Shown: in pieces, positions 905 to 38,496 of the stretch
How positions within the stretch are numbered: position 1 is the first letter of the stretch
How the letters are laid out: each line of letters begins with the position of its first letter
Origin: Parvularculaceae bacterium
GTDB taxonomy: Bacteria; Pseudomonadota; Alphaproteobacteria; Caulobacterales; Parvularculaceae
Direction of reading: 5' to 3'
Length of the DNA: 45,201 nt
Assembly: GCA_021776435.1 (NCBI GenBank)
Contig: JAJFFW010000003.1
Coordinates: forward strand, 1 to 45,201
Translations under genes and position numbers: made by a program
The notes under the pieces: generated by a model
What the model was told of the DNA's origin: nothing
Database searches by the model: none
Seen by the model: only the letters and a program-made list of their open reading frames with translations

Positions 905-964
905 TGTTGGGACTCCTGCGCCCTTAATGGGCATGAAGGGAACCAGGTTTATCGCCTGATGGTC

Positions 965-1132
965 TAGCAGGCTATTGAAAAACCCCATTGTGTGGCCCAT
1001 CCTTCGAGGCACGGACTTCGTCCGTGCGCCTCAGGATGAGGAAATTCAATGGGTTACCTCATCCTGAGGTGCGAGCGTAGCGAGCCTCGAAGGACGAGGT
1101 AACCCTGAAAAGAGTTTTTCAATAGCCTGCTA
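965..1132. repeat. Composite 168-bp element with 19-bp perfect terminal inverted repeats
   Basis: The outer arms TAGCAGGCTATTGAAAAAC (965-983) and GTTTTTCAATAGCCTGCTA (1114-1132) are exact reverse complements. Nested inside is a two-armed CATCCTTCGAGGC / CCTCAGGATGAGG palindrome (997-1099). No reading frame and no obvious target-site duplication are seen. The structure resembles a MITE or a mosaic intergenic element. Confidence 0.85.
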
Positions 1133-1187
1133 GCGCCATTCCGGTTTCAACTGAATCAGGAATAGCGCTAGGTCACAACCCATGAAC

Positions 1188-9485: not shown

Positions 9486-9607
9486 CCATCCTTCGAGGCC
9501 CGGCTGACGCCGGGCGCCTCAGGATGAGGGTAGTTTCATTGCTTCAATCGCACCCCTCATCCTGAGGTGCGACCCTGGATTTAATCCGGGGGAGCCTCGA
9601 AGGATGG
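9486..9607. repeat. CATCCTTCGAGGC palindromic repeat between atpD and atpC
   Basis: The ends CCATCCTTCGAGGC (9486-9499) and GCCTCGAAGGATGG (9594-9607) are perfect 14-bp inverted repeats. Inside are a GCCTCAGGATGAGG / CCTCATCCTGAGG pair and two short variable hairpins (CCCGG-CTGACG-CCGGG; CCTGGATTTAATCCGGG). It fills nearly the whole spacer of the operon and may fold in the mRNA. Confidence 0.9.
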
Positions 9608-9618
9608 CGGCGCGCGCT

Positions 9619-11191
<1,573 letters not shown>

Positions 11192-11206: not shown

Positions 11207-12118
11207 CTAAAGCGCCTCCGCGCCGGCGATAATTTCAATCAGTTCGGTGGTGATCTGAGCCTGACGGGCGCGGTTATATATCAGGTTCAGCTTATCGATC
11301 ATATCGCCTGCATTACGAGTCGCATTATCCATCGCAGTCATCGAAGCCGCCTGTTCCGACGCAACATTTTCAAGCAGTGCACGGAATATCTGCACGGCCA
11401 CATAACGCGGGAGCAGTGTTTTCAGGATCTCGTCTTCTTCCGGCTCGTAGTCATAAATGGCGCCCTTGAGATCAGTCGTCAGACGTCCCTCAGGATGAGG
11501 AGACCGGGCGTCTCGAAGGACAGGCGCCTTTGCGGGAATGATCTGTTGCGGGGTCGGAACCTGCGTCATCACAGATTTGAACTTGCCGTAGAAGAGTGTG
11601 GCAACGTCGAACTCGCCGTCATCGAACATCGTCAGGACCTGCTCGGCAATTTCCTGAGCTTGCGCAAACCCGATCTGCTTGACGTCGAGGAAATTCGTCT
11701 TGGCAACGATGAGGCTGCCGTAGAGACGCTTGAGTTGATCATCGCCCTTACGGCCGACCGTAATGATCTTGACGGTCTTGCCTTCGATTTGAAGCTTGAC
11801 GATATGCTCACGGGCGAGGCGTACAATTGATGAATTGAAACCACCGCACAGACCTTTATCGGCAGTCGCAACGATCAACAGGTGGGTTTCATCTTTGCCT
11901 GTGCCGGACAACAGCTTCGGCGCATTGGGGTTGCCCTCAACGCCAGCGGTGAGGTTCGCGAGCACCGCCTCCATCCGTTCCGTATAGGGGCGCGCCGCCT
12001 TGGCGGTTTCTTCCGCACGACGCAGTTTCGCAGCCGCCACCATCTGTTTGGCCTTGGTGATCTTCTGCGTGGATTTCACGCTGGCGATCCGGTTTTTGAG
12101 GTCTTTTAGGTTGGCCAC
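11207..12118 (-). CDS. atpG: F1 ATP synthase gamma subunit, with in-frame repeat insert
   Basis: Rotor shaft of F1, 303 residues. The conserved ends are intact: [20 protein letters not shown] at the start and [19 protein letters not shown] at the end, with the DKGLCGGFN loop near residue 90. Between QQIIPAK and [10 protein letters not shown] the protein carries about 13 residues more than I recall from other alphaproteobacterial gamma subunits. The extra residues ([13 protein letters not shown], about 198-210) are encoded by one arm of the CCTTCGAG...CCTCATCCTGAGG repeat. The site is a loop known to vary in length, so function is probably kept. The gene starts 11 bases after atpA. Confidence 0.96.
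11486..11521. repeat. Repeat arm inside atpG, translated in frame
   Basis: On the minus strand this reads GTCCTTCGAGAC, a short core, then CCTCATCCTGAGGGA. It has the same TCCTTCGAG and CCTCATCCTGAGG ends as the intergenic copies. GAGAC (11500-11504) and GTCTC (11510-11514) form a 5-bp stem, and CCTCA/TGAGG a second. Length and phase preserve the atpG frame. Confidence 0.85.
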
Positions 12119-19481: not shown

Positions 19482-19617
19482 CCCATCCTTCGCGACGCCT
19501 TGCCGGCTTCTCGCCGTCAGGGCTCCTCAGGATGAGGATCTCTGTGTTGCAACAAAGGTAACCCTCATCTTGAGGAGTATTCGCCGTGTCAGCGGAGAAT
19601 GCGTCGCGAAGGATGGG
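19482..19617. repeat. CATCCTTCGCGACGC palindromic repeat downstream of dapD
   Basis: The ends CCCATCCTTCGCGACGC (19482-19498) and GCGTCGCGAAGGATGGG (19601-19617) are perfect 17-bp inverted repeats, with CTCCTCAGGATGAGG / CCTCATCTTGAGGAG inside. It is a variant (CGCGACGC instead of CGAGGC) of the family seen in the atp operon. It fills most of the gap between the convergent dapD and cupin genes. Confidence 0.9.
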
Positions 19618-32536: not shown

Positions 32537-32916
32537 TTTTAAACCTTACGACAATTACTAGGACTGTGCGCTCAAACTTCTGCCAAAGTAAAATTCCTGC
32601 CCCCCCGGCCATAATGTTGTCCCATCGCGGCAAACACCTTAACGGTGTTGCACTTGTTCCGTGAACTCGTGGGACCCATTCTTCGTTCCACACTGGATTC
32701 CCGCATTCGCAGGAAAGAGCGGAGAAGGGAACGTCATCCCGGACGTTACACGAGCCCAAAACCGCAGGGTTTTGGCCTGCGAGTGTTAGATCCGGGATCC
32801 AGGGCTGCTTGCTCCGTGCGCGCTGTCCTGGATCCCGGATAGCTCGTTTTGCCAGCCAAATCATAGATTTGGGGCAAACCGGCTTCCGGGATGACGGCTT
32901 TGTTGGGTATGCACCT
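32537..32916. other. Repeat-rich recR-ybaB gap
   Basis: 380 bases with no supported gene. It holds the composite palindromic element 32732-32896 and, left of it, a short ATTCCCGCATTCGCAGGAA hairpin (about 32696-32714) of a further repeat type. The rest (32537-32690) shows nothing recognisable beyond a run of seven C at about 32600-32606. Confidence 0.6.
32732..32896. repeat. Composite palindromic repeat, copy B of the 112-bp unit
   Basis: The outer ends CGTCATCCCGG (32732-32742) and CCGGGATGACG (32886-32896) are inverted repeats. A CCAAAACC-GCA-GGGTTTTGG hairpin follows the left end. From 32784 to 32895 the sequence matches 1-112, including the GGATCCAG...CTGGATCC arms and AAATC-ATA-GATTT. 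Confidence 0.88.
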
Positions 32917-35137: not shown

Positions 35138-35267
35138 GTCCGCTCCACAATTACCCCGTAAGTATGAAGGGTCGTGACGTAAGCCTCAACTGCGCTTTTT
35201 TTGCGAGTTTTGCAAAGACCCGGTGCGCGCGAAACTCACGAGAGTTGGTAAAAGCGGCTGGAAAGGT

Positions 35268-35360
35268 GGAAGACTGAAACGACCCGAACCTGAAACTCGT
35301 TACGGCTGCTTCCTTCCGGATCTGACCGGGTTGGCGAGAGGTTCGCCCGCCAGCCTTCCG
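35268..35360 (-). ncRNA. ffs: Signal recognition particle RNA (small, 4.5S type)
   Basis: On the minus strand the tetraloop and conserved SRP54-binding core read GGTCAGATCCGGAAGGAAGCAGCC. The flanks pair as CGAACCT (35339-35345) with AGGTTCG (35285-35291), and CTCG with CGAG, giving the long hairpin of bacterial small SRP RNA; an outer GGAAG/CTTCC pair sets approximate ends. The RNA works with Ffh in co-translational membrane targeting. Ends are uncertain by several bases. A -35/-10 pair sits upstream at the correct distance. The location next to dnaX is seen in many alphaproteobacteria. Confidence 0.93.
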
Positions 35361-35366
35361 TGGCGG

Positions 35367-36487: not shown

Positions 36488-36540
36488 AGCGTTTTGCATT
36501 CAGGCTGATGCTATCCTGGATCGAGGCCTCTCAACCCGCT

Positions 36541-36605
36541 CATCCCGGCGGAAGCCGGGACCCAGTCAGACTCAGATCTAAGCCCCGGCTTCCGCCGGTG
36601 AGAGC
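36541..36605. repeat. CCCGGCGGAAGCCGGG repeat between nudC and pheA
   Basis: CATCCCGGCGGAAGCCGGGACCC at the left pairs with CCCCGGCTTCCGCCGG at the right. The type is common in alphaproteobacterial intergenic DNA. It fills part of the 171-base gap between the convergent nudC and pheA, and may end both transcripts. A TTAGAGCGTTTTGCATTCAG stretch just before it (36485-36504) recurs in part, inverted, near 40027-40044. Confidence 0.65.
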
Positions 36606-36658
36606 GGCGTTTGATGCAGCGCCTGCGATCCAAGATGAATGCAACCTCGCCGTCCGTC

Positions 36659-38467: not shown

Positions 38468-38496
38468 GGTCCTTCGACAAGCTCAGGATGAGGTCC
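38468..38496. repeat. Fragment of the CCTTCGA...CTCAGGATGAGG repeat
   Basis: Reads GGTCCTTCGACAAGCTCAGG then ATGAGGTCC, a short one-arm variant of the repeat family found whole at 9486-9607. It lies between cycM and arsC. A TTATAGAGCGCCGGGCG stretch just before it (38443-38459) resembles the end of the repeat at 38973-39036. Confidence 0.6.

Follow-up and report, generated by a model that had tools for sequence, protein, structure and literature searches.

The atpG gene of a Parvularculaceae bacterium contains an in-frame segment that is best explained, with a probability of roughly 0.87, as a damaged half-copy of a short, non-autonomous, REP/MITE-like palindromic repeat that was inserted, tolerated and translated as part of the ATP synthase gamma subunit (AtpG). 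The window, the whole stretch of 45,201 nucleotides here analysed, is one contig of a 2.96 Mb draft genome in 142 contigs (G000). The repeat is identified, it lies in frame in atpG, it recurs in frame in other core genes, and its coding copies show a bias in the frame that is read.

The repeat segment within atpG

Minus-strand positions 11486-11521 read GTCCTTCGAGACGCCCGGTCTCCTCATCCTGAGGGA, in frame within the gene (Table 1). An earlier note on this DNA had described a palindromic repeat arm translated inside AtpG, and this is borne out by an intact open reading frame (ORF) that matches Pfam PF00231 over residues 3-303 (E 4.2e-98), its best solved relative being chain G of 5dn6, which we take to be a Paracoccus structure. 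The approximately 13 added residues estimated there are reduced by codon alignment to 10 (30 nt, AtpG residues 200-209), the Glu-Gly that follows being native; 11495-11524 is an equally good parse of the insert, since CCT is repeated at both of its edges.

Table 1. Coordinates of features in the window.
Feature	Position	Strand	Remarks
atpG, ATP synthase gamma subunit	11207..12118	-	303 aa, GTG start, intact ORF
Net insert, 30 nt in frame	11492..11521	-	from codon alignment with family relatives and other AtpG
13-mer CCTCATCCTGAGG in atpG	11488..11500	-	flipped relative to the canonical half-element; overlaps conserved Pro-Glu-Gly codons
Full copy, two inverted half-elements	9486..9607		between ORFs taken by eye for atpD and atpC
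Copy with degenerate right half	11067..11191		between atpG and the ORF taken by eye for atpD
Full intergenic copy	997..1094		enclosed by a larger inverted repeat, perfect over 20 nt (964-983 / 1114-1133)
Full copy, GCGAC ends	19482..19617		one core with one mismatch
Bacterial small SRP RNA	35263-35361	-	Rfam RF00169

The repeat unit is a half-element formed by TCCTTCG[A/C/T]G, a variable hairpin stem and then CCTCAGGATGAGG, and a full copy, such as that at 9486-9607, consists of two inverted half-elements. The first 15 bases of the atpG insert, GTCCTTCGAGACGCC, recur only within uvrA and pdhC among the 45 stretches of the window genome fetched around the repeat plus the window, and, judged by sequence, derivation of the 5' arm from the repeat appears beyond reasonable doubt. 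Canonically TCCTTCGNG is followed by CCTCAGGATGAGG, the place of which is taken in atpG by CCTCATCCTGAGG. This 3' core is therefore flipped relative to 116 canonical half-elements from three genomes (G000, G028 and G005), in which a pattern search yielded atpG as the only free-standing flipped-order case, five others being either nested (L072) or an imperfect half running into the next half. Of the claimed likeness of the segment's ends to the copies at 9486-9607 and 11067-11191, the sequences hold (TCCTTCGAG and CCTCATCCTGAGG occur in both), while the arrangement does not. In addition, CCTGAGGG, which ends the atpG segment, coincides exactly with the Pro-Glu-Gly codons present in most family relatives, so that the apparent 3' arm may combine repeat sequence with bases native to the gene. 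This overlap, together with the flipped core, indicates that the copy could be partial or recombined, and it may have originated by insertion and decay, by inversion of its 3-base centre or by microhomology copying.

In the last case, the atpG bases would have been gained by template switching, native CCTGAGG codons pairing with a repeat copy and 30 nt being copied. Several features agree with such an event: (i) two repeat copies lie within 2 kb (9486-9607 and 11067-11191), (ii) native CCN GAR GGN codons are found exactly at the insert junction, flanked by the repeated CCT, (iii) the atpG 3' core has a non-canonical orientation, and (iv) repeat stems change sequence yet stay self-complementary, as expected. 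However, the coding copies checked in UvrA, PdhB, GlyS and ValS consist of canonical half-elements, one or two in each, and not of junction fragments, and a single mechanism is simpler, making template switching a possible but rather unlikely source of the insert.

Insertion of a repeat half-copy is the preferred reading, and the loop that holds it was compared across relatives. The gene was present in 79 of the 81 genomes searched, and 109 other atpG loci, together with the window's own, provided 92 distinct AtpG sequences for alignment. The loop from IIPA to YEP comprises 34 aa here versus 19-31 in the 91 other distinct sequences, in agreement with the earlier note, which describes it as shorter in other alphaproteobacteria, and 24 residues is its commonest length (45/92). 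The insert is absent from all 91, and none of them shows the same loop without the repeat. Codon-level alignment gives PA-x-A-P-E-G-x-x-x-P-D-L-K-G for most family relatives and PAKAP followed by the insert for the window genome, while three relatives carry an unrelated 5-residue gain in the same loop, indicating that it tolerates length change. The nearest named relatives by AtpG are Parvularculaceae labelled Marinicaulis and Parvularcula; because even the closest AtpG sequences are only ~84-87% identical to that of the window, the insertion event is not reconstructable. In an AlphaFold model built with 40 sequences (mean pLDDT 83.8), residues 200-221, which include the insert, show pLDDT < 50 and sit between a strand (185-193) and the C-terminal helix (227-301). 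The insert position appears, in this model, compatible with the AtpG fold, in a loop predicted to be disordered just before that helix.

Recruitment of the longer loop for a function, such as regulation of rotation, would have a parallel in the longer chloroplast gamma chains (322 and 364 aa), which have a regulatory role, but it is improbable: the insert occurs in one genome only, the loop keeps to the shorter range in all others, model confidence at the loop is low, and the same type of peptide is found in unrelated proteins. An assembly artefact might be suspected in a draft of 142 contigs, all the more as about a dozen contig ends lie within 600 bases of a repeat core in G005, but the intact, in-frame ORF and the like insertions in glyS and thiC of the single-contig Aquisalinus flavus genome (G028) make it very improbable. 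Chance resemblance of an ordinary loop expansion to the repeat, to which the varying loop length of the three relatives with an unrelated 5-aa gain could lend some colour, is hardly credible for a 15-mer identical to the uvrA and pdhC copies and bearing a self-complementary GAGAC/GTCTC stem.

Structure and distribution of the repeat

The 13-mer CCTCATCCTGAGG is present in 62 exact copies in 40 clusters in the window genome, versus 0 for the pattern read backward; when one mismatch is allowed, these values rise to 97 copies and 59 clusters, versus 3. The repeat is thus abundant far beyond chance. Distinct half-elements numbered 53 in the G000 stretches, 38 in G028 and 25 in G005, with lengths from 36 to >50, and G028 was recognized as A. 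flavus because its atpG locus (L037) is found letter for letter in NZ_CP042288.1. The variable stem was evaluated in 150 distinct half-elements of eight genomes. In the main register, where it starts mostly with G-C and C-G pairs, 65.6% of positions self-pair, versus 40.9% after exchange of partners among copies at random (200 shuffles, maximum 44.7%), and in a second register 45.2% are paired versus 33.5%. The hairpin is therefore conserved even though its sequence is not. A script detected one copy nested inside another at two places (L072 and L078, the latter in uvrA), and the second core of the 11067-11191 copy has one mismatch.

Across the class, the canonical half-element pattern was found in 31 of the 385 genomes sampled (own genome included), with up to 138 copies and a backward control of 0 throughout. 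Exact cores occur very unevenly, in 21 of 49 genomes of the same family and order, again including the own one (backward control 0-2 per strand). Rfam at its gathering threshold provided no match for the repeat, its only match in the window being the SRP RNA.

Other repeated sequences were observed alongside. A larger repeated unit encloses the repeat at window positions 964-1133 and at L075 and L084; in the window its inverted ends are perfect over 20 nt, and inner sequence resembling this unit recurs on contigs C22 and C80. A composite unit, TTTCCGG..AACCGGGTCATCATTA, encloses the repeat at L085, L086, L091, L105 and L107, at L091 in opposite order, and contigs C71 and C102 begin almost identically. 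In a different genus, the same repeat adjoins the atpG 3' end (G005:C4:172515-172567, L345), near the position of the window's 11067-11191 copy. A separate short element, CCTTCGACAAGCTCAGGATGAGG, is located at six places (window 38481-38493, L086, L104, L106, L112 and L113) in a similar context of ~100 bp, GCGAAAAAGTGG ... GCGCGACCACAAAGAAAAC, with variation. Further palindromic repeats of the window, with a GGATCC or TCATCCCGG core, lie at 1-112 and 32784-32895 and at 36536-36607, those with the TCATCCCGG core resembling CGTC REPs as these are worded in their description.

Coding copies in core genes and their reading frame

Other coding genes of the window genome carry the same repeat in frame, namely those for UvrA, for the pyruvate dehydrogenase components PdhB (E1 beta) and PdhC (E2), and for a pair of paralogous TPR proteins in which the flanks of the element match each other. 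Three other genera contribute in-frame copies: A. flavus, on its single-contig chromosome, in GlyS (insert AASSFVAAGAAPQDEAAPGAEQDPHPEAATK) and the C-tail of ThiC; a third genus (G005) in ValS; and a fourth (G003) in UvrA. Protein sequence on either side of these copies is conserved. PdhB and PdhC are matched across the element by NCBIfam PRK11892 (14-497) and TIGR01349 (52-495), respectively, and UvrA of G000 has an NCBIfam match over 19-995. When aligned to solved structures, UvrA of G000 (2r6f, at 251/290, chain 254/254), GlyS (7yse, 419/457, chain positions 422/425), ThiC (4s2a, 600/624, chain positions 590/589) and ValS of G005 (1gax, 626/672, chain positions 472/475) show a break at the element, while UvrA of G003 has Pfam domains on both sides of its insert. 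Such breaks between conserved segments suggest that these positions, too, are compatible with the respective folds. At the corresponding position, PdhC of G001 and of G009 contains related inserts, which may go back to a single ancestral event.

Coding copies are a minority of clusters. Exact-core clusters lie inside confirmed genes in 4/40 cases in G000 (AtpG, UvrA, PdhB and one TPR protein), 2/32 in G028 and 1/40 in G005, and in none of 21 in G003, 12 in G001, 10 in G021, 9 in G010 and 9 in G006. In G000, cores with one mismatch add PdhC and the second TPR protein, so that 6/59 of such clusters are coding there; the degenerate cores in UvrA of G003 and in PdhC of G001 are additional to these counts. 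Some candidates were rejected: an RNase E/G copy (L093), whose ORF spans the full element, although alignment of relatives sets the start downstream; L316 of G028, where the element seems to lie upstream of the real start and there is no family match; and, within a set of ten ORFs, FdhD (L100) and DAGK (L101), with single chance-like 12-of-13 matches, and L072, where the element precedes an NlpC/P60 domain.

The choice of frame among coding copies was uniform. Four readings of the repeat, named by their residues, are open in most of 155 distinct half-elements (PQDE 138, LRMR 138, PHPE 136 and LILR 141), the third frame on each strand always being closed. All ten gene-lineage cases (AtpG, UvrA of G000, PdhB, PdhC, the two TPR proteins, GlyS, ThiC, ValS and UvrA of G003) are read as PQDE/PHPE, which is more hydrophilic and less basic than LILR/LRMR, an outcome with odds of 1 in 1024 if frames are equally likely and the ten cases independent. 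As a control, Pfam was run on 49 other ORFs in which a core lies at some distance from either end (cut-offs 200 and 180 aa; four confirmed genes excluded). Of these, 45 gave no domain; L339, L397 and L410 (its longer ORF) have the element ahead of their domains; and L440 was set aside, its 13-mer looking, by eye, like native epimerase sequence. Of nine further ORFs, six lacked domains, and L083, L092 and L071 have domains that start only after the element. In total, domains appear in 7/58 control ORFs, with the element preceding them in six and a native-looking 13-mer in one, and no confirmed gene with the LILR/LRMR reading of the repeat was detected in these 58 ORFs and the ten cases, as judged by ORFs, Pfam and sequences recognized by eye. 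Since only PQDE/PHPE is used though LILR/LRMR is equally open, we infer selection on the protein behind the frame bias, from events that are few.

UvrA matches were obtained in 49 genomes, from 30 of which the locus was fetched; 23 loops were parsed automatically, G003 (L200) and five short-loop rows were read from the text, and G050 (L223) was left out. Seven of the 30 loci (L194-L200, from G000, G009, G001, G015, G005, G011 and G003) have palindrome-derived in-frame inserts in one and the same loop, which follows the UvrB-interaction domain (Pfam UvrA_inter). This loop spans 30-47 residues in G000, G001, G005, G009, G011 and G015 versus 7-16 in 17 other parsed genomes, and is also long in G003. 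It is filled by the atpG-type repeat in G000 and G003, by a CCCTCTCC...GGAGAGGG palindrome in G001 and by C5-G5 type palindromes in G005, G009 and G015, neither of the latter two types resembling the atpG-type repeat. G011 contains an apparent decayed copy, which folds no better than shuffled sequence (z -0.2); the z values of the remaining five parsed inserts are -3.8 to -8.4. The two C/G-rich palindromes have a CTCYCCCGC..GCGGGRGAG centre in common, with different flanks, and may therefore be related, so the loop would be occupied by two or perhaps three unrelated repeat families.

The TCCCCCG..CGGGGGA pattern has 59 sites in G001, 42 in G005, 14 in G000, 11 in G015 and 1 in G009, the last in uvrA itself; read backward, it is absent from these five genomes and found once per strand in three others. 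The CCCTCTCCC..GGGAGAGGG type was found 5 times in 131 kb of G005 stretches and at just one place besides uvrA in 67 kb of G001. The C5-G5 type is also located in the lipoyl linker of PdhC in G005, G021 and G023. More broadly, the lipoyl linkers of PdhC and PdhB were observed to be partly translated palindromes of two families (L224, L225, L227, L236, L239, L103 and L081).

Coding copies of the window genome also differ in subtype. The TCCTTCGAGAC end (GAGAC subtype) is displayed by 5/9 coding half-ends versus 1/62 non-coding ones (Fisher p 5.5e-5, the half-ends of one element not being independent), and by most class-wide half-elements among the matches listed. On one reading, an earlier wave of the repeat survives in the coding copies; the ends in GlyS and ValS are common in their own genomes among the matches listed, so this pattern is not general. 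We tentatively propose, at somewhat less than even odds, that particular protein loops act as landing pads repeatedly colonized by unrelated palindromes, and that coding copies outlive intergenic turnover as subtype fossils. If so, mobile hairpins would continually supply core enzymes of Parvularculaceae with linker sequence.

Mechanism and relation to known palindromic repeats

A course of events in line with these data would begin with the spread of a REP/MITE-like repeat through the window genome and its relatives. One copy would have entered atpG at a site coding for a variable, probably disordered loop of the gamma subunit, and, with an added length that is a multiple of three and no stop, it would have been tolerated and translated, giving the protein some ten additional hydrophilic residues. 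Loops and interdomain linkers encoded by other core genes of the family would have received copies in this way on repeated occasions; selection has presumably removed those that landed in folded cores or were read in the basic, more hydrophobic frame. Most likely, some enzyme mobilized the repeat in trans, or new copies arose from hairpins through template switching, and copies in loops then survived selectively, the insert there being probably translated and nearly neutral. Since two copies belong to a named strain whose genome is a single contig, translation and fitness cost are directly testable, and the shared UvrA loop together with the strict frame choice offers a natural experiment on the absorption of mobile DNA by proteins.

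Transposition by RAYT, the route proposed for GTAG REPs, is unlikely here and was rejected, as PF01797 (Y1_Tnp) has no match in seven repeat-rich genomes (G000, G003, G005, G006, G010, G021 and G028), which also sets the repeat apart from GTAG/RAYT REPs. One match just over the cut-off was obtained in each of G001 (16 cores) and G009 (1 core), and control searches found the family in 6 and 5 of 14 genomes. According to the portions available of PMC3733652, a RAYT gene may be lost while its repeats persist.

In-frame palindromes inside genes are a known phenomenon, having already been reported in the available portions of PMC3733652 and PMC2229807. The earlier note regarded Rickettsia as their established setting, which is correct as far as it goes but too narrow, intragenic REPs being described in several species (Di Nocera 2013, PMC3733652, in part), with units inside uvrA, recB and tRNA-synthetase genes and with two Xanthomonas recB genes carrying different REPs at about the same site. 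Its suggestion of a similar process in another lineage agrees with the insert in a core rotor subunit of this alphaproteobacterium. Related reports, as far as their accessible text goes, concern Br-REPs of Bradyrhizobium (PMC5082802), coding palindromes of Nematomorpha (PMC6649704) and RepRanger (PMC12306157). Within one library of open-licence literature, no report was found on the window repeat, on the Parvularculaceae cases or on several repeat families in one UvrA loop, and a search with the repeat's own letters returned unrelated papers only, judged by title and abstract.

Among REPs, the GTAG and CGTC groups have been described, the latter being mostly alphaproteobacterial and without a dedicated transposase (PMC3733652, in the sections available). 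The window repeat shares with CGTC REPs its palindromic nature, the mostly alphaproteobacterial range, the predominance of inverted dimers and the presence of some units (GTAG or CGTC) in genes. CGTC REPs are characterized there by stems of 8-9 bp starting with A-T pairs at the first two positions, loops of 4-5 and a CCA tail, whereas in the window repeat the conserved ends are long and the stem, which varies in length, has a G-C/C-G start in its main register, a distinction drawn against a description in words. QMITE2 of Coxiella is likewise palindromic, with relatives reported in Bradyrhizobium and Rhodobacter and some in-frame gene overlaps; as described in the part consulted of PMC5896051, it differs in that overlaps with functional genes are at 3' ends and mid-ORF in-frame copies are in hypothetical proteins. 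ERIC, YPAL and Correia elements are also small non-autonomous repeats fused in frame to ORFs, but they are larger (107-168 bp) and come from enterobacteria, Yersinia and Neisseria (PMC2229807, in part).

The RPEs of Rickettsia are similar as short palindromes found both between genes and in frame within conserved genes (Delihas 2007, PMC2229807, in the excerpts available), and RPE-6 and RPE-4 of R. conorii have been equated with CGTC REPs in the corresponding passage of PMC3733652. The window repeat fits these RPE-like traits, with many copies, in-frame positions in conserved genes and sites that seem compatible with the fold, a likeness judged by behaviour. RPEs, too, fall at positions compatible with the protein fold, and the present host, like its relatives, is presumably free-living, unlike Rickettsia. 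The known systems are extended here by a further lineage and repeat family in which housekeeping proteins contain many in-frame copies, affecting ATP synthase, nucleotide excision repair, pyruvate dehydrogenase and two aminoacyl-tRNA synthetases.
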